In this document: positions 14,752 through 27,854 of the stretch, one piece after another
How positions within the stretch are numbered: position 1 is the first letter of the stretch
Layout: each line of letters starts with the position of its first letter
Origin: Streptomyces cynarae
GTDB taxonomy: Bacteria; Actinomycetota; Actinomycetes; Streptomycetales; Streptomycetaceae
Direction: 5' to 3'
Assembly (NCBI RefSeq): GCF_025642135.1
Contig: NZ_CP106793.1
Location: forward strand, 5,486,001 to 5,550,000
Length of the DNA: 64,000 nucleotides
Made by a program: the position numbers and the translations under genes
Notes under the pieces: generated by a model
What the model was told of the DNA's origin: nothing
Seen by the model: only the letters and a program-made list of their open reading frames with translations
Database searches by the model: none

Positions 14752-15050
14752 GGTACCTACGGAACCGTAAGTAGTGGATCAGAGTGCGACCGATATCACC
14801 CGGCCCGTCCGGACTGTGCGGATACGGCCGCCGCGCAAAAAAACCTTCTGTCGAACTCTACGCGCACGCAAAGAAACGCGGCGACATGTGGCGATCCCCA
14901 CTCCGCTCAGGTGTGACGTCCTCTGGACAGATGCGCAATCTCGTCGGATGATCAAATGAGTGCGGTCGGCACCGGATGAGCGGCTACGAAGCATCCGGGT
15001 CGCAGCCCCCACGGGGCAATCAACACAAAATCCCTCATCTAGGAGCGATC
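14752..15050. other. Divergent promoter region, hlyIII / pckG
   Basis: 299 bases between diverging genes. An A-rich run at about 14838-14844 and generally low G/C compared with flanks fit promoter DNA. The pckG leader ends with a good AGGAG ribosome site at 15041-15045. No operator dyad of note was seen. Confidence 0.5.
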
Positions 15051-16874
15051 GTGGCGCGCGACATCGCGGCTCCCTCAACCGTCCCCACCCAGCACAAGGA
15101 CCTGATCTCGTGGGTCAACGAGATCGCCGAACTGACGCAGCCGGACAGCGTGGTCTGGTGTGACGGATCCGAGGCCGAATACGAGCGCTTGTGCGATGAG
15201 CTCGTCCGCAAGGGCACCTTCAAGAAGCTCGACCCGATCAAGCGCCCGAACTCGTACTACGCCGCCTCCGACCCGACGGATGTGGCCCGGGTCGAGGACC
15301 GGACGTTCATCTGCTCCGAGAAGGAGGAGGACGCGGGTCCGACGAACCACTGGAAGGCGCCCGCGGAGATGCGGGAGATCTTCCAGGGCGAGAAGGGCCT
15401 GTTCCGCGGGTCCATGCGCGGCCGGACGATGTACGTCGTGCCCTTCTGCATGGGCCCGCTCGGCTCGCCGCTCTCCGCGATAGGCGTGGAGATCACGGAC
15501 TCCGCCTACGTCGCGGTCTCCATGCGCACCATGACGCGCATGGGCCAGGCGGTCCTCGACGAGCTCGGTTCCGAGGGCTTCTTCGTCAAGGCCGTCCACT
15601 CGCTGGGCGCCCCGCTCGAGCCCGGCCAGGAGGACGTGCCCTGGCCCTGCAACTCGACCAAGTACATCTCGCACTTCCCGGAGGCCCGGGAGATCTGGTC
15701 GTACGGCTCCGGCTACGGCGGCAACGCGCTGCTGGGCAAGAAGTGCTACGCGCTGCGTATCGCCTCGGTCATGGCGCGTGACGAGGGCTGGCTGGCCGAG
15801 CACATGCTGATCCTCAAGCTCACGCCCCCGCAGGGCGAGTCCAAGTACGTCGCCGCCGCCTTCCCGAGCGCCTGCGGCAAGACGAACCTCGCCATGCTGG
15901 AGCCGACGATCTCCGGCTGGACGGTCGAGACGATCGGCGACGACATCGCGTGGATGCGCTTCGGCGAGGACGGCCGCCTGTACGCGATCAACCCCGAGGC
16001 AGGCTTCTTCGGCGTCGCGCCCGGCACCGGTGAGCACACCAACGCCAACGCGATGAAGACGCTGTGGGGCAACGCGGTCTTCACCAACGTCGCCCTCACC
16101 GACGACAACGACATCTGGTGGGAGGGCATGACCGAGGAGTCGCCCGCCCACCTGACCGACTGGAAGGGCAACGACTGGACTCCGCAGTCGGAGACCCCCG
16201 CAGCCCACCCCAACGCCCGCTTCACGGTCCCGGCCTCGCAGTGCCCGATCATCGCGCCCGAGTGGGAGGACCCGAAGGGCGTGCCGATCTCGGCGATCCT
16301 GTTCGGCGGCCGCCGCGCCACGGCGGTCCCGCTGGTGACGGAGTCCTTCGACTGGAACCACGGCGTGTTCCTCGGCGCGAACGTCGCCTCCGAGAAGACC
16401 GCAGCGGCCGAGGGCAAGGTCGGCGAGCTGCGCCGCGACCCCTTCGCCATGCTCCCCTTCTGCGGCTACAACATGGGCGACTACATGGCCCACTGGATCG
16501 ACGTGGCCAAGGACAAGGACCAGTCCAAGCTGCCGAAGATCTACTACGTCAACTGGTTCCGCAAGAACGACGAGGGCAAGTTCGTCTGGCCGGGCTTCGG
16601 TGAGAACAGCCGCGTCCTGAAGTGGATCGTGGAGCGCCTGGAGGGCAAGGCCGAGGGCGTCGAGACCCCGATCGGCATCCTCCCGGCCAGGGGTGCCCTG
16701 GACACGAACGGCCTCGTACTCTCCGAGTCCGACCTCGACTTCCTGCTGACGGTCGACAAGGAGGTGTGGCGCGAGGAGGCCGCCCTGGTCCCCGAGCACC
16801 TCAACACCTTCGGCGACCACACCCCCAAGGAGCTGTGGGACGAGTACCGCGCCCTGGTGCAGCGCCTGGGCTGA
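15051..16874 (+). CDS. pckG: Phosphoenolpyruvate carboxykinase (GTP)
   Basis: A 607-residue enzyme converting oxaloacetate and GTP to PEP, GDP and CO2, the entry to gluconeogenesis. The kinase-1a P-loop [13 protein letters not shown] and the following metal-binding TIGDDIAWM are exact GTP-class features, as is [15 protein letters not shown] with the guanine-binding region. Length matches the family. The start is GTG at 15051 with AGGAG five bases upstream; the frame remains open for 75 bases further but without support. It is probably monocistronic, ending at the hairpin at 16970-17003. Confidence 0.96.
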
Positions 16875-16969
16875 CGCCCCGTTTGAACTCCGCGGCCGGT
16901 CGGACTTGCCCTGACCTGCGACGTCGACAGGACCGGCCGCGGTGGCAGCACCGTGTTCCAACGGGCCGG

Positions 16970-17003
16970 GCCCGCACCCGTACAACGGGGTACGGGTGCG
17001 GGC
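16970..17003. terminator. Hairpin between pckG and collagen-like gene
   Basis: A perfect 14-bp stem (GCCCGCACCCGTAC / GTACGGGTGCGGGC) with a six-base loop sits between two converging genes. No clear U-tract follows on either strand, but such G/C-rich stems commonly end transcription in streptomycetes. A weaker outer repeat, GCGGCCGGTC / GACCGGCCGC, lies just upstream at about 16899-16940. Confidence 0.65.
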
Positions 17004-17044
17004 GTCGGCCCATGTGGCGGCTCCATGAGGCTCTGTCCGGCGAT

Positions 17045-17863
17045 TCAGTCCCTAAGGAAACCCTTGCCCGTCTTCAGGTCCTTGATGGAGAGATCCGCGC
17101 CGTTCCGTGGCGCGCCCGACACCGACCCGCGAGGCGGCTTGTGGGAGCGGAGCGCGGCGGCCGGCGTGGGTGGGAACGGGGCACAAACGAGGTTCGGGTT
17201 CGTACCGGTGCAGGTGGTGATGTGAGCGAAACCCTCGGTGTCCACTCCCTTGATGTAGAAGGTGTTGTCGTCCGGTGAGGGAGTCGCTCCCGGGTCAACG
17301 GCTACCCCGAGGGCGCAGAGGTTCGGCGGCGCATCGGCCACGACGATGAAGCCGGCGGGCCCTGCGGGGGTGCCGGGCGGCCCTGCAGAGGCGAACACCC
17401 TCCCAGCGAAGATGACGGCGTCGTACTCCACGCCCTCCGTGATGACGGAGTCCCACTCGATACACGGCCCCGTGTTGCCGGTGGCACCGGTGGCCCCGGT
17501 GGCCCCCGTCGCCCCGGTGGCCCCGCTGGCCCCGGTTGCCCCCGTCGCCCCGGTGGCTCCCGTGCGCCCGATCGGGCCCGTCGGGCCTGTGGCGCCCGTC
17601 TTGCCTTTCTCCTTGCACCTGCCGTCCTCACCTACCGCACCTACCGCACCTACCGCACCTACCGCGAGGTGAGTGCCGTCGGCCTTCTTCCCGTCCCTGC
17701 AGTCGTCGCCGCCGATCTTGCCCGCCGGCGTACCCGCCAGTGCGGGGGTGGTGAAGCCCAGCATCACGAGGGCGAGTGTCGCCATCGTGGCGCCCGCGAG
17801 CCTTCGGCCCCGCTGCGGAAGCGGGCCGAGGCCGGTTGACGCGGTCCTGTTCTCAGGACTCAT
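17045..17863 (-). CDS. Secreted collagen-like protein 1 (Gly-X-Thr repeats)
   Basis: A 272-residue protein: a signal peptide with a hydrophobic core and cleavage near ALA at about residue 43; a polar stretch with two Cys and three Ala-Val-Gly repeats; a collagen-like block of about 16 Gly-X-Y triplets, mainly Gly-Ala-Thr (with GPTGPIG at its start); then a 130-residue C-terminal domain with several Cys. The ATG at 17863 follows AAGGAGC. Gly-X-Thr triplets are the O-glycosylated substrate in characterised bacterial collagen-like proteins (Bacillus BclA), and three membrane glycosyltransferases lie directly upstream. No LPXTG-type anchor is seen. Confidence 0.83.
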
Positions 17864-18022
17864 GAATTGCTCCTTGTGGAACGAATGGAGTGACCTCCAG
17901 AGGTGCATTCGAACCTCATCGGCATCTTTGGGCTGACTGGACGTCAAAATATGGAAGGCGCACGGAACGGTCGCCAAATTGGTCGAGAGGAGCGGTCTGA
18001 TTGGTCGAAGCTCTATACGAAT
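17864..18022 (-). promoter_or_regulatory. Leader and promoter region of collagen-like gene 1
   Basis: 159 bases with locally reduced G/C. On the minus strand it contains two direct copies of CGACCAAT and a TTGACGT that also occurs upstream of collagen-like gene 2 (23882). No convincing -10 was found for it. Confidence 0.3.
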
Positions 18023-18058
18023 GTGTGCCGTGCCCTGGACGATTCGGGCACGGCACAC
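18023..18058 (-). terminator. Strong hairpin upstream of collagen-like gene 1
   Basis: A perfect 13-bp stem, GTGTGCCGTGCCC / GGGCACGGCACAC, with a ten-base loop. It separates collagen-like gene 1 from whatever is transcribed upstream on the minus strand. Sequence 18060-18318 next to it holds no recognisable gene and may be a relic. Confidence 0.55.
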
Positions 18059-18318
18059 TTCGGTGGGATCCCGGAGAGATAAGGGCCGCTTGTAGTTCTG
18101 TGAGGGCCCCTTCTTGACGACCCAGGGGTCCACGCCCGGCGCCAGGCCGCTGGACCTGGGTCGGGGACCAGCAGGACGCTGCAGGCGTTGAACGACTCCG
18201 TATGAACTCGGCGAACAGAGGCCGGGGGCCGCACCGTACAACGGCGTACGGGGCGGGCCCCTGCCTCATGCACGAACGCTGGGCTTGCCTCCGGCCCGCC
18301 GTCGGCAGGCCGGAGTTG
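18059..18318. other. Gene-free stretch with hairpin
   Basis: No frame here shows convincing coding bias. A stem CTCCGGCC / GGCCGGAG at about 18290-18316 abuts the left end of the 200-bp element and could be the original terminator of the glycosyltransferase gene at 18515, now separated from it by the element. Confidence 0.35.
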
Positions 18319-18518
18319 CTAGTGCTGCGACCGGAAAGGTTCACCGGCTCGCGACGCCCGGCACGGCACCTCGCTGCGTTGTCGCATCACCGGAGTACAT
18401 CCAGTACGCGGGCGATGCTCCGCCTTGCGATGCTCCCCCACAGCCCGAAAGGCGTGGGGGTACCCCCAGCACCGGACGCCGTGAGCTTTCCGGCAAACCT
18501 TTCCGGTCACAGCACTAG
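18319..18518. mobile_element. 200-bp MITE-like element with long terminal inverted repeats
   Basis: The element is exactly 200 bases. Its 29-bp ends, 18319-18347 and 18490-18518, are inverted copies with three mismatches; both begin CTAGTGCTG and share GACCGGAAAGGTT. Imperfect pairing extends inward to about 46 bp (for example GACGCCCGGCAC against GTGCCGGACGCC-like sequence). The interior carries the TGGGGGTACCCCCA palindrome family also seen at 3082. It has no reading frame for a transposase, so it would be a non-autonomous element or a structured RNA. CTAG at each outer end may be the target site. Its right end supplies the TAG stop of the gene at 18515. Confidence 0.78.
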
Positions 18519-19777
18519 GGGGCACCGAGCTCGAAGATCGCAAATCCGGCGAACCAACCGGAGGCGAGCGCACAAGTGCCGAGCACAGTCACCAGCGCGG
18601 GTCGGCTGAGCCTGCTCAGGGCGATGGCGAGCGGGATGAGCAACGGAAAGGCGGGCAGCAGAAAGCGAGAGACGTTGGAGAAGATCTGCTGGTTGCAGAC
18701 GAGGATCGCCACGGTGGCCAGGGTATGGACCATCAGGACGGCGGGTGGGCGCAGTCGCACCAACAGGACGATCAGGATCGGCAGTGCCAGGATGATCAGT
18801 GCGGCCAGGAGGTCTGGGACGGGAGCGGCGAACACGTAGTCGTTGCGTCCGAGCATGATGCTCCGCATGGTGGCGAAAGTGAACTGGCCACCGTCGAAGA
18901 AGTGCAGCCAGGCGCCGCGCTGGAGCTTGAAGTAGCCGCCCCAGTCGCCCATCCGCCAGCCGACCCAGCCCACGTATCCCAGGAGCCCGAGCGGCGCCAG
19001 CGTCATAGCGATCAGAGGGCGCTCGACTCGGTCCCTGTGCCGGAAAAGCGCTACGAGTGCTGCCAGGCCCACTGCTGCGATCAGGGTCACCGCGGTCGGC
19101 CGGCTGAGCCCGGCCGTCAGGGCGAGTACCCCGGCAGTGATCCATCGCCCGGTAATCACCGCGTAACAGGACCAAGCGGCGAGCGCGACGAAGGTGGAGT
19201 CCGAGTAGACCGCCCACTCCGCGCCGGATCCCGGCATGACCGCCCAGAGGCCGGCCGCGATCACACCGGCGCGAACCCCGCCGAGCCGCTCCGCCACGGC
19301 GAAGACGCCGGCCGCGGCCAACAGCGAAGCAACCACCGCGACCAGCATCCCGGCACCGTACAGGCCGAGGCCGGTGATCTCGGAGACCAGGCGCATCAGG
19401 CCCGGGTAGAGAGGGAAGAACGCGGCCGAGTTCTCCTGGAACGTGTACCAGGGGGAATTGGTGATCGGCACCAGCTGTGGGTCGTACCCGAACTGTGCGA
19501 TTAGTTGGTACCACCAGCCGTCGAAGGAAGCGGGCACGTCCCAGGGGTGGGCGCCGCCGCCGAGGCGCGGAGACTTCGTGAGGTAGTAGCCGGAATAGTC
19601 GACCAGTCGCATGAAGACCGCGAAGCCCACCAGTTTCAATACCGCGTAGCATCCGACGGCCGGCCCATAGCGCCGTACCAGTCTGCGCGATCGCTGTTGC
19701 AGGGGCGCCGGGGCGGCTGGAGGTGTGCTGTCGCGCTGTGCGGGCTGGGCAGGGATAACGGTCGGCATCGTGCTCAT
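18515..19777 (-). CDS. PIG-V-like polytopic mannosyltransferase
   Basis: A 420-residue membrane protein with about ten segments. It resembles bacterial PIG-V/GT-C mannosyltransferases: a first luminal loop with FDGWWYQLIAQFGYD (the family's D-G-W/WY motif, near residue 85-100), then FFPLYPGLMRL and a downstream GLSRPTA motif. It would use a polyprenyl-phosphate mannose donor outside the membrane. The ATG at 19777 has only a weak ribosome site. The last codon abuts the MITE-like element, whose CTAG forms the stop, so the original C-terminus may have been altered. It lies in the same orientation as collagen-like gene 1 and two GT39-like genes. Confidence 0.82.
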   Translation of the reverse strand: MSTMPTVIPAQPAQRDSTPPAAPAPLQQRSRRLVRRYGPAVGCYAVLKLVGFAVFMRLVDYSGYYLTKSPRLGGGAHPWDVPASFDGWWYQLIAQFGYDPQLVPITNSPWYTFQENSAAFFPLYPGLMRLVSEITGLGLYGAGMLVAVVASLLAAAGVFAVAERLGGVRAGVIAAGLWAVMPGSGAEWAVYSDSTFVALAAWSCYAVITGRWITAGVLALTAGLSRPTAVTLIAAVGLAALVALFRHRDRVERPLIAMTLAPLGLLGYVGWVGWRMGDWGGYFKLQRGAWLHFFDGGQFTFATMRSIMLGRNDYVFAAPVPDLLAALIILALPILIVLLVRLRPPAVLMVHTLATVAILVCNQQIFSNVSRFLLPAFPLLIPLAIALSRLSRPALVTVLGTCALASGWFAGFAIFELGAP

Positions 19778-20233
19778 CGGTTGGACTCATTCCGCCGTTG
19801 TGGACGATCGTTCGCGAACCTATACACCGGTGCAGGTCAGGGGTGCGCAGACACGCCATACCGGTGTATTACGGGCCTTTGAACACCCACAACGGCAGCG
19901 GCACCAAGCGAGACACCGCGGCGGTGGCATGGAGCCACGATCCCCGCGCCGGCTGGCATGTGCGGCGTGTCCGGTATGGTCCGGCCGCGCCAGGGCGATG
20001 ATGCCGCTGCGGCGGGCGAGCCTGGTGAGGCAGGCTATGTCCCGGCCCAGGCCCGAGACTTCCGCCTCCTGCTGCGAGGTGCCCTCGAGGCCCCGAGGCA
20101 TCGCCTGGCGCGCCCGCGACGCGGAGTGGGCTCCTGTGGTGCCCGGGCCTGTTCGGGCACGGAATCCAACTGTCGGAATCGGCGGAGAGATTCGGTGCCA
20201 ATCCACGGGCTGGACATCAGGCGGCCCACGCAA
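19778..20233. other. 456-base gap upstream of the PIG-V-like gene
   Basis: Bases 19820-20233 can be read on the minus strand as a 137-residue frame, but it resembles no family and has mixed codon bias, so I do not call it. Close to the PIG-V gene is an inverted repeat, ATACACCGGT at 19822-19831 and ACCGGTGTAT at 19860-19869, 28 bases apart, in an A/T-richer patch; this may be the promoter/operator. The rest may be remnant DNA. Confidence 0.4.
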
Positions 20234-21733
20234 CTACGAGGTGCGCACCAGCAGAGCCACTGCCAGACCGCTGGGACGCTCGACCCCGGACAGCGTGTAG
20301 TGGGCGCGCAGAGCCGCTGACTGATACGCCGTCAGTGCGTTCAGCGGATCCGTCTCGTTCCCCCTGACCACCAGCCAGATCCGCTTCTCGTCCCGCAGGC
20401 ATCGGGCCGGCTCCGGGCACTCGGTCGCCGCCAGATCGTTGCGTTCGGTGGGCGATTGAGCGAGGAAGACGTCGCGCAGCTTCAGAGCGCGAGGAAGGTA
20501 GTAGCGGACGCCCAGCGAGATGGCCTCCTCTTCCCTCCTCGGATATGCGACCGCGTCGCCGGGCACGTAGTACTTCTGAATGGTCTGCGCGGCAGCCGCG
20601 AAGTCGGGGCCGCCCGGCCAGTAGTGCCCGAACTGTTCCCGCATTGATGCCTGTTCCTGTGCCGTGAGCACAGCGAGAGCCGCGAAGACCGACGCGAGCG
20701 CCGGCCGGGACCGTGTCGCGGCGGCGAGCCCGGCCCCGGCGAGGACGGCGAAGGCCGGCAGGGTGAACAGCATGTACCGGAAGTAGAAGTAAGAGATGTC
20801 CCCGTGGGAGACCGCCCAGATGAGGAGGACGGGCGCCACGGCGGAAACGGCGCAGAAGACGACGGCGTCGCGGCGCTGTCGGCACGCCACCATGGCGAGC
20901 AGGATCATCGTCCCCGCGCACGGGGCGGTGTAGAACACCTGCGGCCAGATGTCGATCAGGCTCCAGGCCGTCGGCTTGGCGATCCACCAGATCTGCCGGA
21001 CGGTCTGTGCCCTGCCCAGCAACACCACCGGGACCAGCGAGGCGAGACCGACCAGGACCGCGAGACAGAAGCCCCACCACGCTCGGCGCTCGCGCCGGGC
21101 CCGCAGGGCCATGAGAACCAGGTGCCCGATCAGACACGTCAGCGCGAGCAGATGGAACAGTCCCACAGCCGCCAGGCCGAGGGCGTAACCCGCCCATCGC
21201 CAGGGGCTGTCCGGGCGGTCCAGGGCCCGCAGCAGAAGCAGCGCGGCCAGGGCCACGGCCAGCATCACCAGGCCGTAGGGACGGGCCTCATGAGCGAATC
21301 GGCTCACCCCGGGAACAAGGGCGAACAACACGCCGCCGGCCACTCCGGCGCGGCGGCCGAACAGCCGCTGTCCGATCAGTGCCACACAGGCGGCGGCGCC
21401 GGCCATGGCCAATGCGGAGGGCATCCGCAGAGCCGTGGCCGAGTCCCCGAAGAGGCTGGTCCATCCGTGCAGGATCAGGTAGTACGCACCCAGCACCCCG
21501 TCCACGTGCTGGACTGTGGCCAGTACCTGGCCGGTGCTGCGACCGGACATGTCCCAGCTGGTCAACTCGTCGCGCCCGAGCAGCGGTTCGCCGATCCGGT
21601 AGGTGGCCACGACCAGGGTGACCACCGAAGGCCACAGCCACAGGCCGACGGATGTCATCCACCGGTCGTGCTCTGTCTCCGGGGCGGGAACAGCGCAAGT
21701 GTCCTGGGCGGCGGTAGGAGAGAGTAGTGCCAT
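20234..21733 (-). CDS. GT39-like membrane glycosyltransferase, paralogue A
   Basis: A 499-residue polytopic protein. The first extracytoplasmic loop has RDELTSWDMS with the Asp-Glu pair typical of PMT/ArnT enzymes (about residues 54-63). About ten membrane segments follow, then a soluble C-terminal domain of about 120 residues containing GVRYYLPRALKLRDVFLAQ. It is clearly homologous over its full length to the next gene upstream (21900-23399), with identical length. The start at ATG 21733 has a GGTGAGG ribosome site. Sugar and acceptor are unknown; the adjacent collagen-like proteins are the obvious acceptors. Confidence 0.83.
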   Translation of the reverse strand: MALLSPTAAQDTCAVPAPETEHDRWMTSVGLWLWPSVVTLVVATYRIGEPLLGRDELTSWDMSGRSTGQVLATVQHVDGVLGAYYLILHGWTSLFGDSATALRMPSALAMAGAAACVALIGQRLFGRRAGVAGGVLFALVPGVSRFAHEARPYGLVMLAVALAALLLLRALDRPDSPWRWAGYALGLAAVGLFHLLALTCLIGHLVLMALRARRERRAWWGFCLAVLVGLASLVPVVLLGRAQTVRQIWWIAKPTAWSLIDIWPQVFYTAPCAGTMILLAMVACRQRRDAVVFCAVSAVAPVLLIWAVSHGDISYFYFRYMLFTLPAFAVLAGAGLAAATRSRPALASVFAALAVLTAQEQASMREQFGHYWPGGPDFAAAAQTIQKYYVPGDAVAYPRREEEAISLGVRYYLPRALKLRDVFLAQSPTERNDLAATECPEPARCLRDEKRIWLVVRGNETDPLNALTAYQSAALRAHYTLSGVERPSGLAVALLVRTS

Positions 21734-21850
21734 GCCTCACCCGTAGTGGCACGGCGGAGCGGGCCGCAGGCACGACCCGCCCGTTACGGCCCGCTTCCCC
21801 CGTTCGGCCCCGGGCGGCGTCGCCGTCGCGGACAACAGGCATACGATCCT

Positions 21851-21899
21851 CCGGACCTGCCGTGGGGTTCCGGAGGACGGGCTGAGCACCTCAGGTGCT
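21851..21899 (-). terminator. Possible terminator between the two GT39-like genes
   Basis: Immediately after the stop at 21900 on the minus strand is a small perfect dyad, AGCACCTCAGGTGCT (21885-21899), and then a CTCCGGA / TCCGGAG stem (about 21848-21875). There is no U-tract; termination here is plausible but unproven. Confidence 0.35.
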
Positions 21900-23399
21900 T
21901 CAGCTCTTCTCCTTCCGCACGAGCAAGGTGACGGTCATACCCGTCATGGATGTGCTCATGGTCGCTTGGTACCGGGTCCGCAATGCGCTCGCCTGCTCCG
22001 TGCTGATGGCGGCGAAGGGGTCCGGGCCGGTGCCCTGGGTCAGCAGCCAGATGCGCTGCTCGCCTCTGAGGCACAGGTCCGGGACCGGGCACTGGACCGC
22101 GTACAGATCGTTGATGGCCGTGGGGGTCCTGGCCAGGAACACGTCTCGCATCTTCAGGTCGCGGGGCAGGTAGTACTGCACACCGCTGTCGAGCTTCCAG
22201 GTGTCCTGGCGGTCGTAGACGACGGCGTCGCCGGGCTGGTGGTACTTCGTGACCACGGCCGCCGCGGCGGCGTAGTCAAGGGGGACGGGGGCGTTGTGCT
22301 CGAACGGCTCCCTCATGCGCTTCTGGTCGGGCAGCGTGAGGACGGCCAGTGCCGCGAGGAGCGCTGCGGTCGCCTTCGGGGAGTGAAAGGTCGCGGCGAG
22401 GCCGGCGCCGGCGAGGAGTGCCCAGGCCGGGAGGGTGAAGAGGATGTACACATGACGGAAGTAGGAGACGTCTCCGTGGGAGGCCAGCCAGACGAGGACG
22501 CACGGTAGAACGGCCCAGACGGCGCACAGGAGCGCGGGGGCTTTGCGGGGCGGGTGGGCCAGGCATGCGAGGCCGATCAGCGCTCCGCAGCACACGGCGG
22601 ATGCGAAGACCTCGGGCCAGATGGAGGAGAGCGCCCAGAGATCGGGCTCCGGGACCCAGTACAGCTGGCGGTGGGCTTGGGAACGGCCGAGCAGGGCCAG
22701 CGGGGTGACGCAGGCGGCAACGGCCGAGAGGACCAGGGCGGACTTCCACCAGACGGAGCGGTCGTGTCGTGCGTGGGCAGCGAGCACGCAGGCGTGGGCG
22801 ACTACGACGGACAGTGCGATGAGGTGGAGAAGTCCGACCCCCGTCAGCGTGAGCGCGTAGGCCGCCCAGCGCCACGGACTGCGGGGGTTGTCCAGAACCC
22901 GGAGGACGAAGAGTGTCGCGAGGGCGACCATGAGAATCACCAGCGCATAACTGCGCGCCTCCTGACCGTAACGGCTCACCGCCGGGACGAGGGCGAAGAG
23001 GATTCCGGCGAGGATTCCGGCGCGGTGCCCGAAGAGCCGGTTTCCGATCAGGCTCGTGACGGAGGCGGCTCCGGCCACGGCACATACCGAGGGAAGTCGC
23101 AGGGAAATGACGGAATCGCCGAAGAGGCTAACCCACATGTGCATCAGCAGGTAATAGGTGCCGTGCACGGCGTCGACGTTCTTCAGAGTGGCGAGGATCT
23201 GGCCGGTGTCGCGGTTCACCACGTCCCAGGTGACCAGTTCGTCGCGGCTCAGCAGAGAGGCGGCGAGGCCATGGCTGCTCAGGGCGAGGGTGAGGGCGCA
23301 CGGCCACCACCACAGCCCCGTTCTGCGTCTTGCGGGTTGGACCGCATCGGTGCTCCGGATTTCCTCGCGTGGCTGGGGAAGCGGCGCGGCGATCACCAT
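21900..23399 (-). CDS. GT39-like membrane glycosyltransferase, paralogue B
   Basis: A 499-residue paralogue of the preceding gene, matching it throughout: RDELVTWDVV in the first loop, HEAR/QEARSYAL after segment 4, a shared SPWRWA, SHGDVSYF and the C-terminal GVQYYLPRDLKMRDVFLAR. The pair is a tandem duplication that has since diverged. The ATG at 23399 follows GGGAGA with good spacing. Upstream is a rare A/T patch (TATATATAAC) likely to be its -10. The gene is separated by 637 bases from the diverging collagen-like gene 2. Confidence 0.83.
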   Translation of the reverse strand: MVIAAPLPQPREEIRSTDAVQPARRRTGLWWWPCALTLALSSHGLAASLLSRDELVTWDVVNRDTGQILATLKNVDAVHGTYYLLMHMWVSLFGDSVISLRLPSVCAVAGAASVTSLIGNRLFGHRAGILAGILFALVPAVSRYGQEARSYALVILMVALATLFVLRVLDNPRSPWRWAAYALTLTGVGLLHLIALSVVVAHACVLAAHARHDRSVWWKSALVLSAVAACVTPLALLGRSQAHRQLYWVPEPDLWALSSIWPEVFASAVCCGALIGLACLAHPPRKAPALLCAVWAVLPCVLVWLASHGDVSYFRHVYILFTLPAWALLAGAGLAATFHSPKATAALLAALAVLTLPDQKRMREPFEHNAPVPLDYAAAAAVVTKYHQPGDAVVYDRQDTWKLDSGVQYYLPRDLKMRDVFLARTPTAINDLYAVQCPVPDLCLRGEQRIWLLTQGTGPDPFAAISTEQASALRTRYQATMSTSMTGMTVTLLVRKEKS

Positions 23400-24870
<1,471 letters not shown>

Positions 24871-24900
24871 CGGACTGCTTGCTTCACGCGGGAATGAGCG

Positions 24901-24934
24901 ACGATGCTCCGATGCCTGGGTTTCGGGGCATCGT
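24901..24934 (+). terminator. Likely terminator of collagen-like gene 2
   Basis: ACGATGCTCCGA pairs with TTCGGGGCATCGT (one mismatch) around a ten-base loop, 30 bases after the stop codon. It has no U-tract but stands alone in the right place. Confidence 0.5.
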
Positions 24935-25204
24935 CCGCGTTGTGCCCGCGCCTGCCACCAGTTGCGCGGTGGGTGTCTGCAGGCCCTGTTGGCCGGTGTG
25001 GATGCGTGCCACGACCTCGGACAGCGACGCGCCGGTTGCCTCACGGGCGGCAGTGCGGGAGGCATGGACGGGCATGGGACATGGCCGAGCCCTTCCTGCG
25101 GGAGCCAAAGACCCAGCAGGAAGGGCTCGGCCGTCTCCTCGGCCGTGGCCATACTGACCGGGATCACACAGGGCCGAGGCCCCCCAATGAACCCGGGGAC
25201 GACG
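24935..25204. other. Convergent intergenic region
   Basis: Between the collagen-like gene and the converging TPR gene. Apart from the two hairpins (24901-24934 and 25083-25132) a minus-strand frame at 24884-25108 has fairly normal codon bias for about 60 codons, but no family resemblance and no ribosome site; it may be a gene fragment. Confidence 0.35.
25083..25132. terminator. Long bidirectional hairpin
   Basis: A perfect 17-bp inverted repeat (25083-25099 and 25116-25132, arms GGCCGAGCCCTTCCTGC and its complement) around a 16-base loop. It lies 70 bases after the stop of the TPR gene on the minus strand and probably ends transcription from both sides. Confidence 0.7.
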
Positions 25205-25825
25205 TCATCCGATGCTCTCTGCGGGGCTTGGCGTCGACGAGTGGCCTACGGAATCCCGGTACGGTTCCGGAATTTGAGGGCGGAGCGAGGGATCGGCCGC
25301 GGCGGCGCGACGGTACGCTTCCTTGGCTTCCTTGTCGCGGCCCTTCGCTGCCAGCATCTGCCCGAGTTGCATTTGGAGCATGGCCGCCTTCGGTTCGGCA
25401 GCCACGGCACGCTTCAGAAGCCCCTCGGCCCGGTCGGGGTCGCTCGACTTCAGCATCATCGCCTCGCTGTAGAGCGCCGACATGAATGACGGATCGATCT
25501 TCAGCGCCTTGTCGTAGGCCGCACGGGCGCCGAATGTGTTGCCGCTCGTCTGCGCGACGACGCCCAGGCCGTACCACGCGAACTTGTTGTCAGGATCCAG
25601 GTCCAGTACGCGCCTGTACGTCAGGGTGGCACCCTGGGAGTCCCGCTGCTGCTGCTGTTTGAGGGCGGTCTGCAGGAGCCGGCTCGTTTCCTGTGCCTTC
25701 TGGGTCGCCGACATGGCCTTGGAATCCGGAGGCTCGGCCGACTCGGACTGAATCGCCCAGAAGGTCACGCCGGTGGCGATCGCCGCGGCTCCGGCCAGCC
25801 CTGCCCACAATCTCGTACGTTTCAC
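25205..25825 (-). CDS. Membrane-anchored TPR protein
   Basis: A 206-residue protein from a GTG at 25825. One N-terminal membrane segment (about residues 7-24) is followed by at least three tetratricopeptide repeats between about 50 and 180, with the W-LG-Y-A-F-A-P pattern visible in FAWYGLGVVAQTSGNTFGAR and the next repeat. TPRs are protein-docking modules, so it may scaffold the neighbouring glycosyltransferases or present the collagen-like substrate; this is inference from position. The diverging gene at 26129 also carries TPRs. Confidence 0.78.
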   Translation of the reverse strand: MKRTRLWAGLAGAAAIATGVTFWAIQSESAEPPDSKAMSATQKAQETSRLLQTALKQQQQRDSQGATLTYRRVLDLDPDNKFAWYGLGVVAQTSGNTFGARAAYDKALKIDPSFMSALYSEAMMLKSSDPDRAEGLLKRAVAAEPKAAMLQMQLGQMLAAKGRDKEAKEAYRRAAAADPSLRPQIPEPYRDSVGHSSTPSPAESIG

Positions 25826-26128
25826 TTGTCACATCTCGTTGGAATAGTGAGGGGCGGATGGGTGTGGCTGATCTCGGGTCGCCGACGCAGAACAGACCGT
25901 GACGGCGCCAGCGGTACCGGAATCCAACCACCGTCATTTCCGCCGACGTTACGAGGCCGTCCTGAAGACGCCGCCATTCGGCAGGCACTTGGGGCACCAG
26001 ACCACCCGAATGCACCCACCGGGCCTCTGGTTCGCCTATGGAAAAACGCTGCTTCGGTCCCGCCTCTTTGCGTCGCCTCGAGTGGCTGGATACCGTCACA
26101 TATCGGTCATTAGCTGCCGCTGAGTTGG
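25826..26128. other. Divergent promoter region, TPR gene / GT2-TPR gene
   Basis: 303 bases between diverging starts, noticeably richer in A/T near 25826-25860 and 26030-26120. No strong dyad or clear -35/-10 pair was found. Neither gene has a strong ribosome site. Confidence 0.4.
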
Positions 26129-27250
26129 ATGGGACACGTGAAGCCAACGATCTGTCTGAACATGATCGTCAAGGACGAAGCTCCGGTGATCCGACGCTGT
26201 CTCGAATCCGTCAGGCCCTTGATCGACACCTGGGTCATCGTGGACACGGGCTCGACCGACGGTACTCAGGACGTCATTCGAGAGGTCTACAGCGATCTGC
26301 CCGGTGAACTGTACGAACGGCCATGGAAGGGGTACGACGGAAGCCGCACCGAGGCGATCGAACTCGCCCGCAGCAGTGCCGACTACCTCCTCTTCATCGA
26401 CGCCGACGACGTGATGGAGGTGCAGCCCGGCTTTCGCATGCCGAAGTTGACCCATGACGCCTACCGGGTCGCAATCCACCACGGGCCCCTCGTCCATTGG
26501 CGCACCACCCTGGTCTCCACGCGGCTGCCGTGGCGGTACGTCGGCGTCCTGCACGAGTACCTCGAGTGCGACGCACGGTTCTCTCAAGGGACTCTCGACG
26601 GCGTCAACATGCTCATCGTGGGTGGCGGGGGCCGCCTCAGGGGTGAGGGCCTGCGTAAGAAGTACCTGCGCGACGCGGAGATCCTTCAGGAAGGTCTGCT
26701 CAAGGAGCCGGACAACGCCCGTTACGTCTTCTACCTCGCCCAGAGCTGGCGCGACGCCGGTGAGCCGGAGAAGGCCCTCGAAGCCTACGACCGCCGCGTC
26801 GCCATGGGAGGCTGGGGTGAGGAGGTCTACTGCGCCGGCCTCTATGCCGCACGGCTCGCGGAAGAACTTCAGCGGCCGCTGGTCGAGGTGATGCACCGGT
26901 ACCTTCGCGCGCACGAGAGCCGTCCCTCACGTGTGGAAGCCCTCGGCGACCTGGCGCGCCTGGCCCGGCTCAACGGACCGCGATGGGAGGTTGCGTACAA
27001 GTCTGCGCGGCGGGCGGCGGCGCTCCCGCGCCCCAACGACATCCTGTTCGTCGAGTTCGCCTGGTACGAGTGGCGCGTGCTCGACGAACTCGCGGTCTCC
27101 GCCTTCTGGGTCGGACAGTACGAGGAGTCGAAGAGGTGCTGCGAACGCCTCCTCAAAGGCGGGAAGCTCCCTGCTGAGCATCGCGAACGTGTGATGAAGA
27201 ACCTTGAGTTCGCGCAGAGCAAGCTGGGCTCGAAGGTGCTCACACCGTAG
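26129..27250 (+). CDS. GT2 glycosyltransferase with TPR tail
   Basis: A 373-residue soluble protein. Residues 1-190 are a GT2 domain beginning CLNMIVKDEAPVIRRCLESV, with DTGSTDGTQD and the metal-binding IDADD near residue 92. Residues about 190-350 are TPR-like helices (KEPDNARYVFYLAQSWRDAG and following). This GT2-TPR class acts in the cytosol, often on proteins or in the same neighbourhood as surface repeat proteins. It could add the first sugar to collagen-like repeats before export, with the membrane enzymes extending the glycan outside. Alternative start: GTG at 26138. It ends about 80 bases before the conserved gene pair at 27332. Confidence 0.82.
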   Translation: MGHVKPTICLNMIVKDEAPVIRRCLESVRPLIDTWVIVDTGSTDGTQDVIREVYSDLPGELYERPWKGYDGSRTEAIELARSSADYLLFIDADDVMEVQPGFRMPKLTHDAYRVAIHHGPLVHWRTTLVSTRLPWRYVGVLHEYLECDARFSQGTLDGVNMLIVGGGGRLRGEGLRKKYLRDAEILQEGLLKEPDNARYVFYLAQSWRDAGEPEKALEAYDRRVAMGGWGEEVYCAGLYAARLAEELQRPLVEVMHRYLRAHESRPSRVEALGDLARLARLNGPRWEVAYKSARRAAALPRPNDILFVEFAWYEWRVLDELAVSAFWVGQYEESKRCCERLLKGGKLPAEHRERVMKNLEFAQSKLGSKVLTP

Positions 27251-27331
27251 TGCTGTGGCACCCGGTCCGCGCGTCTCTGGGTGTCCACGCGGACCGGGGC
27301 CGTCGGGGGAGCCGTCGGGCGGCTCGGAGGG

Positions 27332-27754
27332 TCAGCCCGCGGTGATCGGTTCGCGCGGGTCGACCAGTGCGGCGCTGTGCGCGTCCATGCGTTCCGCCGA
27401 CAGGATCGCCGCCGCCGTGTCCGCGCGGGAGGCCGCCACCACCAGGGCGCGGCCCGCCAGCGCGTGGGCGCGGCGGTGGAGGGCTGTCACCCGCGCCCCG
27501 CGGGTCGTCGCCGTCGCCCGGGTCGGCGGTACACCGCCGCGCAACCGCGTCACCTGCCCGGCGAGCCGTTCCGCGGCCGTGTCCAGGTCTGCGGAGGGGG
27601 CCAGGGCGCGCAGTTCGTCCGTCACCGTGAGCAGCGCCGCCAGATGGCCCGCGAGCTGGATGTCCAGCTCCTCCTCGCGTGAACGGTGCGGGAAGTCGGC
27701 GTCGGTGGCGTCGGCCATCGTGTGGACCGACTTGGTGCGGATCGGTTCGTACAT
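27332..27754 (-). CDS. Hypothetical helical protein
   Basis: A 140-residue, mostly helical, Ala/Arg-rich cytoplasmic protein. The ATG at 27754 follows GGGAGG with eight bases spacing; the frame extends a further 11 codons upstream without support. It is 100 bases downstream, and reads in the same direction, as the start of no other gene; the aminotransferase gene ends upstream of it at 27855, so the two may be co-transcribed. I recognise no domain and assign no function. Confidence 0.65.
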   Translation of the reverse strand: MYEPIRTKSVHTMADATDADFPHRSREEELDIQLAGHLAALLTVTDELRALAPSADLDTAAERLAGQVTRLRGGVPPTRATATTRGARVTALHRRAHALAGRALVVAASRADTAAAILSAERMDAHSAALVDPREPITAG

Positions 27755-27854
27755 GAGATGGCCTCCCGTGCTCTGACAGGAAGCCATCTTAGCTTAGAAG
27801 TCGTCTAAAGTTGGCTGAATCGCAGAATCGGTCGGTGTTCGTGCATCACGAGCG

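Follow-up and report, generated by a model that had tools for sequence, protein, structure and literature searches.

What does a bacterium do with two collagen-like proteins that are encoded among glycosyltransferases? Such a group of genes lies in a 64,000-nucleotide stretch of the Streptomyces cynarae genome (contig NZ_CP106793.1, positions 5,486,001 to 5,550,000; hereafter the window). An earlier note on this DNA had pointed out two secreted Gly-X-Thr collagen-like proteins (CLPs) accompanied by a set of glycosyltransferases (GTs), and this was confirmed by open reading frames (ORFs), Pfam matches and tract counts. Sequence comparisons suggest that the locus is probably a module for collagen O-glycosylation similar to the SgtA/BclA3 system of Clostridioides difficile, in which a GT with TPR repeats, here termed GT2-TPR, would modify Thr at the Y position of Gly-X-Y triplets.

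Collagen-like proteins and the GT2-TPR enzyme

The genes and tracts on which the argument turns are listed by position in the window and strand.

17045..17863, minus strand: CLP1, a secreted collagen-like protein of 272 aa, with a leader (by eye), a Gly-X-Thr tract and a C-terminal domain
17462..17605, minus strand: Gly-X-Thr tract of CLP1, the putative glycosylation acceptor; 16 triplets, with Thr at Y in 13
24037..24870, plus strand: CLP2, a second secreted collagen-like protein, whose leader and C-terminal domain differ from those of CLP1
24223..24612, plus strand: Gly-X-Thr tracts of CLP2; runs of 16, 8 and 18 triplets, with Thr at 31 of 42 Y residues
26129..27250, plus strand: GT2-TPR, a GT-A glycosyltransferase with TPR and without a leader (Pfam and family profile), the proposed collagen Thr O-glycosyltransferase
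20234..21733, minus strand: GTa, a GT-C membrane glycosyltransferase (Pfam PMT_2) of a clade linked to CLP and GT2-TPR genes
21900..23399, minus strand: GTb, a GT-C membrane glycosyltransferase (Pfam PMT_2)

CLP1 begins MSPENR, with AAGGAG upstream of its start, and CLP2 has a GTG start with AGGAAGG ahead of it; hydrophobic, signal-peptide-like leaders were recognized by eye at the start of both proteins. The Pfam Collagen model matched CLP2 above its cut-off (43.4 bits) and CLP1 slightly below the cut-off of 27.2 (25.4 bits). The CLP1 tract is flanked by cysteines, and the CLP1 leader was matched in 30 of 163 loci, with the highest identity (71%) in L085.

GT2-TPR is a protein of 373 aa in which the Pfam GT2 model scored 51.4 bits. 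Single TPR models matched it weakly (E 9e-5, under their cut-offs), and the TPR signal was stronger when the family profile was compared with solved TPR proteins. The earlier description of a membrane TPR protein together with a cytosolic GT2-TPR enzyme was upheld, with TPR found in 25205-25825 and GT2 plus the weak TPR in 26129-27250. Residues D91 and D93, the DxD motif, were invariant across 43 sequences. The solved structures nearest to GT2-TPR were those of GmaR and SunS, which aligned with the GT2 domain and DxD region over approximately 180 to 210 residues; the NCBIfam name of SunS identifies it as a peptide glycosyltransferase. These enzymes share the GT2 domain and DxD region with GT2-TPR but have different acceptors: GmaR, which is also a regulator, acts on flagellin, and the acceptor of SunS is a glycocin Cys.

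Linkage of GT2-TPR to threonine-rich collagens

GT2-TPR was present in 41 of 199 Streptomyces genomes, in two identity tiers of approximately 67% or more and approximately 40-47%. A collagen-like ORF, judged by a Thr-rich tract or a shared C-terminal domain, lay within 3 kb of GT2-TPR in 32 of 41 loci (L031-L036 and L081-L115; the window and a weak hit in G120 were left out). The collagen gene was often divergent from GT2-TPR at a distance of 0-300 bases; in the window, 1.3 kb, including the TPR gene, separate the end of CLP2 from GT2-TPR. When the GT2-TPR and domain searches of the 199 genomes were tallied by hand, 31 genomes had both GT2-TPR and the shared domain, 13 the domain only, 10 GT2-TPR only and 145 neither (Fisher 1e-17).

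The pairing was also examined in the 79 named-genome loci that scored best, 35 from Streptomyces (some from the same strains as in the 199-genome set) and 44 from other bacteria, the latter not selected for collagen. A Gly-X-Thr tract lay within 3 kb of GT2-TPR in 18 of the 35 Streptomyces loci, compared with 2 of 35 farther out. In the other bacteria, 27 of 44 loci had the tract inside this range and 2 of 44 beyond it (221 versus 219 kb; Fisher 9e-9); many of these contigs were cut, and among loci with the full 3 kb on both sides the tract was found in 15 of 23. These 44 loci included Solimonas, Marmoricola, Nocardioides, Polyangiaceae, Burkholderiales, Verrucomicrobia, Planctomycetota and Coxiellaceae. 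Further, in the 6 plasmid records opened of 50 with a match, Gly-X-Thr collagens were found near GT2-TPR relatives on plasmids of Peribacillus, Priestia, Cupriavidus and Methylobacterium, and the GTs beside the collagen genes of the first two, both Bacillota, were homologous to GT2-TPR over nearly their whole length (hhalign probabilities of 98.4 and 99.6). A lack of co-occurrence across genomes beyond chance had been named in the earlier note as what would refute a joint system, but the GT2-TPR/collagen pairing proved to be conserved.

The Y residues of collagens linked to GT2-TPR were compared with those of related collagens elsewhere. Many Streptomyces CLPs have a common C-terminal domain, and a 20-row profile of this domain (A2) allowed a genus search that was blind to the collagen tract. 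The search of the 199 genomes yielded 62 places in 44 genomes, all of which were read. Among the 34 copies within 3 kb of GT2-TPR, 29 had a Thr-rich tract, and Thr made up 736 of 1111 Y residues; the linked copies that were not Thr-rich were those of L101, L096, L093 and L090 and one of two in L111. By comparison, unlinked copies in genomes with GT2-TPR were Thr-rich in 2 of 14 cases (69 of 347 Y residues), one of the two being only 3.6 kb away from the enzyme gene, and copies in genomes without GT2-TPR were Thr-rich in 1 of 14 (10 of 50 Y residues), with the tract wholly absent in 10 of the 14. The difference between linked copies and all unlinked copies (3 of 28 Thr-rich) gave a Fisher value of 3e-9, which, like the other Fisher values, overstates independence, because Thr and linkage are clustered on the tree and independent contrasts are few. 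That tree, of 60 of the 62 copies, requires no more than 7 changes of linkage and 8 of Thr, and 4 and 6 of these changes, respectively, were forced by well-supported branches. In G046, GT2-TPR was found as no more than two incomplete stretches, one of them broken by a stop (possibly an assembly error), and the collagen copy of this genome lacks the tract; in G038, its sister with support of 100/99, GT2-TPR reads through without interruption and the collagen tract is Thr-rich. Profile A2 had no match in the S. cynarae genome itself, and the C-terminal domain of CLP1 resembles the shared-domain family only weakly, scoring approximately 5 bits when the window was excluded from the profile, though the leader of CLP1 is shared.

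These counts bear on a rival explanation in which the pairing is real, Thr at Y serves the hydration or stability of the helix, and GT2-TPR makes a wall or capsule polymer or modifies some other protein. In its favor, a 2022 review names Thr as the residue most often found at Y in Gram-positive collagens (PMC8968730), and some GT2-TPR loci lack a collagen; the viral contigs described below, which lack clear enrichment, point the same way. However, shared-domain copies away from GT2-TPR nearly all have other residues in place of Thr or no tract, the Y residues of non-Thr tracts being mostly Lys, Arg, Gln, Pro, Ala or Asp. In addition, 20 other Streptomyces hits to Pfam Collagen were sampled, one from each of the 20 genomes that head the list; 6 of these genomes have GT2-TPR and 14 lack it. 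In the top-ranked frame, Pro was most frequent at Y in 19 of the hits and Ser in the remaining one (L347, in which a lower-ranked frame has Thr at 8 of 14); codon GC was the sole guide to the frame, and Pro may be favored by the Pfam profile itself. We consider this explanation improbable.

A genus-wide Pfam Collagen scan, which matched 177 of the 199 genomes, was set aside as too noisy to count, since high-GC repeats match in several frames. Many ORFs among the sampled hits (L336-L355) contain extended Gly-Asn-Pro or Gly-Glu-Pro tracts; L349 has a leader resembling that of chaplins, and these ORFs are perhaps collagen-like relatives of chaplins. In L204 and L211, from genomes without GT2-TPR, the shared C-terminal domain is carried on Thr-rich stalks that are not collagen.

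Several other arrangements of GT2-TPR were observed. On a Mesorhizobium plasmid, the GT2-TPR reading lies inside a gene annotated as GT25, with a tract 2.3 kb upstream; GT2-TPR falls within a far longer ORF, with Gly-X-Thr tracts nearby, at L201:2682-5483 (Mesorhizobium plasmid) and L334:2476-5166. On a Citrobacter plasmid (L198:1918-6194), a GT2-TPR relative of 31% identity adjoins an autotransporter with a single GATGPTGP stretch ahead of the barrel, which is perhaps a minimal acceptor, and the same relative was also matched in Enterobacter and E. coli plasmids. In the viral or proviral contigs L246, L250, L255, L258, L272 and L280, a Gly-X-Thr ORF lies no more than 3 kb from GT2-TPR. A further apparent GT2-like protein (FSVFTPSHRPRFLDECLATLQ..., by eye) stands beside GT2-TPR at L081:10104-11615, L082:6823-8220 and L087:7423-8907, and in G442 an anchored TPR protein adjoins GT2-TPR.

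The GT-C glycosyltransferases and the neighboring genes

GTa and GTb matched PMT_2 at 50.4 and 38.7 bits, above the cut-off of 26.1, and no more specific model exceeded its own cut-off. Their identity as the Mycobacterium tuberculosis mannosyltransferase MT1671/Rv1635c was rejected, since this best NCBIfam match reached only 120.7 and 114.2 bits against a cut-off of 900. Residues D53, E54 and D59 of GTb were invariant in 12 aligned sequences. The earlier count of three GT-C membrane enzymes is borne out by PMT_2 in all three, whereas the label PIG-V given to the third lacks a PIG-V model match and the label GT39 given to GTa and GTb extends no further than PMT_2.

A search of the 199 Streptomyces genomes showed that the six closest relatives of GTb outside its own genome (G040, G159, G039, G054, G174 and G041; 51-76% identity) all occur with a CLP and GT2-TPR. 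The relative's gene lies between CLP and GT2-TPR in 5 of the 6 loci and beside GT2-TPR in the sixth. Around more distant GT-C relatives, including the two other GT-C copies of the S. cynarae genome, 14 control stretches of 20 kb each (279 kb) contained no Thr-rich collagen tract, which marks the grouping as more than chance. In a tree of 40 GT-C sequences, 16 linked sequences were separated by a branch with support of 100/99 from 23 unlinked ones, of which 11 had been checked over 20 kb and 12 over a shorter range, 1.5 kb to either side. Within the linked clade, GTa and GTb belong to separate branches. Because the linked sequences are also those of high identity and the unlinked ones those of low identity, the tree points to one origin of the GT-C association rather than many. 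Of the 41 genus loci, 6 have a GT-C gene at the module; among the 35 named Streptomyces loci, such a gene stands beside GT2-TPR in 11, in two of them as a fragment. One strain with the full triad of CLP, GT2-TPR and GT-C is S. avidinii JCM 4726 (L125). The core of the module is CLP plus GT2-TPR, with the GT-C clade optional.

The optional presence of GT-C, and the occurrence of the GT2-TPR/collagen pair without it, would fit two independent O-glycosylations, with GT2-TPR acting in the cytosol and GTa and GTb directly mannosylating Thr of the exported collagen in the manner of Pmt; the PMT_2 matches of all three membrane GTs are also in keeping with this arrangement. The Streptomyces Pmt enzyme (GT39) carries out O-mannosylation, and GTa and GTb resemble it as GT-C membrane enzymes that would act on exported proteins, but they match no protein-O-mannosyltransferase model more specific than PMT_2 and form a clade of their own. 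Moreover, the six nearest relatives of GTb, an unbiased sample, all accompany GT2-TPR and collagen, and none accompanies collagen alone. Independent glycosylations are a possible but rather unlikely account of the locus.

The remaining genes of the region and its flanks are as follows.

18515..19777, minus strand: PMT_2 membrane glycosyltransferase ("PIG-V-like"), inside the region but not linked to the module elsewhere
25205..25825, minus strand: TPR protein (Pfam TPR) with an N-terminal membrane anchor (by eye)
14976-16874, plus strand: flanking gene that we take to be PEPCK
27332-27787, minus strand: SCO4983-family gene (NCBIfam match), on the opposite flank

Seven genes, with their ORFs confirmed at these positions, fill the PEPCK-to-SCO4983 interval (16875-27331). 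Because both strands are used and 166 to 651 bases separate neighboring genes, they form a cluster and not one operon. The flank gene names PEPCK and aminotransferase are our own presumed assignments, not the result of a search.

The PIG-V-like protein matched no Pfam PIG-V model at E<=0.01, and its sole match was PMT_2 at 26.6 bits against the cut-off of 26.1. It was rejected as a module member: its family occurs in 173 of the 199 genomes, with at least 43 places at 51% identity or more outside its own genome, and in 11 of 11 genomes among the listed places that also have GT2-TPR it lies on another contig or more than 1 Mb away. L031-L036 and L081-L195, 121 module loci in total, contained no PIG-V-like match, and the gene appears to be in the interval by accident. 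The earlier proposal of a dedicated GT set is supported for GTa and GTb, whose clade is tied to GT2-TPR and collagen, but not for this gene. Homologues of the anchored TPR protein stand beside GT2-TPR in L082, L085, L087, L119, L128 (the same strain as L082), L132, L138, L148 and L149, all of which show at least one flank gene (PEPCK, SCO4983 or aminotransferase).

The interval is a recurrent site for surface-glycosylation genes, where GT2-TPR, TPR, collagen and GT-C genes are combined differently in the relatives L035, L082, L085, L087, L117, L119 and L120. This variation, together with the stray PIG-V-like gene, is what a chance gathering of unrelated surface genes in a variable interval would produce. 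However, the CLP/GT2-TPR/GT-C triad also occurs elsewhere, with no PEPCK within 20 kb (L031-L034 and L036), and the CLP/GT2-TPR pair recurs in other phyla. The linkage in other bacteria, the Thr covariation and the GT-C tree already disfavor a chance gathering, which we regard as very improbable.

A proposed pathway and its precedents

In the proposed pathway, CLP1 and CLP2 would be recognized in the cytosol while still unfolded: GT2-TPR would bind their Gly-X-Thr chains and transfer a sugar, probably N-acetylhexosamine as SgtA does, to Thr at Y before export. The signal peptides would direct export of the glycosylated chains, which would fold into triple helices outside. There, in S. cynarae and some relatives, GT-C enzymes of the dedicated clade (GTa and GTb) would probably modify the same collagens, either building on the first sugar or attaching another. 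We infer cytosolic priming, export and outside glycosylation because GT2-TPR shares with SgtA its build and its type of neighbor, has an invariant DxD and aligns with GmaR and SunS. The sequences show the domains, the conserved linkage, the linked GT-C clade and the covariation of Thr with linkage to GT2-TPR; the enzyme activities, the order of the steps, the sugars and their linkage, the role of the GT-C enzymes and the final location of the collagens are to be read as predictions.

Besides the clustering of Thr and linkage on the tree, several observations weigh against this reading. Since linked copies were the source of profile A2, the search leans toward linked lineages. No qualifying collagen was found within 3 kb in 9 of the 41 genus loci: L083, L089, L097, L112 and L115 have no repeat partner among the listed ORFs; in L081, L082 and L087, the distance from GT2-TPR to a Gln-rich homologue of CLP2 ranges from 71 bases to 4.2 kb; and in L103 (10913-11959) a secreted protein with 22 GGTPT repeats, another Gly/Thr repeat partner, adjoins GT2-TPR in the collagen's place. 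None of the CLP2 homologues read elsewhere was Thr-rich, with or without GT2-TPR, so that the window copy alone is Thr-rich; their commonest Y residue was Gln, except in L239 (Arg), and L241 was judged by eye. The CLP2 C-terminal domain was tried and rejected as a second covariation test, as it gave no support to glycosylation. Among the best 80 of 400 viral relatives, there was no clear enrichment of tracts near GT2-TPR (17 of 80 in 425 kb near, 7 of 80 in 220 kb far), and the enzyme family is therefore wider than collagen. An actinobacterial phylum sample contained GT2-TPR in 7 of 296 genomes at E<=1e-50, and of the 3 outside Streptomyces, 1 had a tract beside it (G288; none in G212 or G442). 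Finally, L123 and L126 have a clade-like GT-C sequence with no collagen in view, the latter, a clade member, approximately 3.8 kb from GT2-TPR, and beyond the GTb search the GT-C linkage was assessed in loci fetched via GT2-TPR, which is blind to GT-C without GT2-TPR.

The cytosolic priming suggested in the earlier note has a worked-out precedent in C. difficile. As described there (PMC7157674), SgtA is a 358-aa GT-A enzyme with a C-terminal TPR, encoded beside bclA3, that in vitro transfers beta-O-GlcNAc from UDP-GlcNAc onto Thr (or substituted Ser) of collagen-repeat peptides. The two systems share a GT-A plus TPR enzyme of approximately 360 aa (373 aa here), a collagen-like neighbor and, in BclA3, Gly-Pro-Thr repeats. 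In contrast to the module here, BclA3 is a spore-surface protein, and in the parts of the study consulted no GT-C partner is described and an extending enzyme was sought but not found (PMC7157674). The two are likened here by architecture and gene context; sequence homology of GT2-TPR was shown to the collagen-adjacent GTs of Peribacillus and Priestia. BclA, from the exosporium of Bacillus anthracis/cereus, has a Gly-X-Thr region, an exosporium targeting leader, a C1q-like C-terminal domain and capping sugars. It is collagen-like and glycosylated (PMC8968730), as proposed for the CLPs.

Searches of open-licence literature, judged by titles and abstract beginnings and directed at glycosylation of collagen-like proteins in Streptomyces or actinobacteria, protein O-glycosylation in Streptomyces, GT-TPR enzymes with collagen, glycosyltransferases with BclA or with Thr in bacterial collagens, and SgtA, found no description of this module, and the main text of the 2022 review (PMC8968730) does not mention Streptomyces or Actinobacter. 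The earlier statement that no such system had been described therefore stands for streptomycetes within this literature, but the core was already known from C. difficile, and the interpretation of the earlier note is partly supported. The core principle is known; what is notable is its spread over phyla, the Thr covariation and the dedicated GT-C enzymes of streptomycetes. To our knowledge, Thr glycosylation of bacterial collagens is documented in few species; bacterial collagens have been studied as adhesins and biomaterials. We tentatively extend the proposal, while holding it to be somewhat doubtful in this wider form, to a GT2-TPR family that includes collagen O-glycosyltransferases across phyla and to which Gly-X-Thr would largely be due, with two stages in streptomycetes, cytosolic priming and remodeling by GT-C.

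Since the pairing of enzyme and collagen recurs in many unrelated bacteria, a rule established in one gut bacterium may be general. A conserved and readily located enzyme accompanying Gly-X-Thr collagens would go some way to explaining the dominance of Thr at Y in many of them, and GT2-TPR would provide a genomic marker for glycosylated collagens, as well as a harmless Streptomyces host and enzyme set for making them. The GT-C partners make the elaboration of the first sugar a testable question and, if the proposal is true, their clade would represent the kind of second enzyme that was missing from the C. difficile work.

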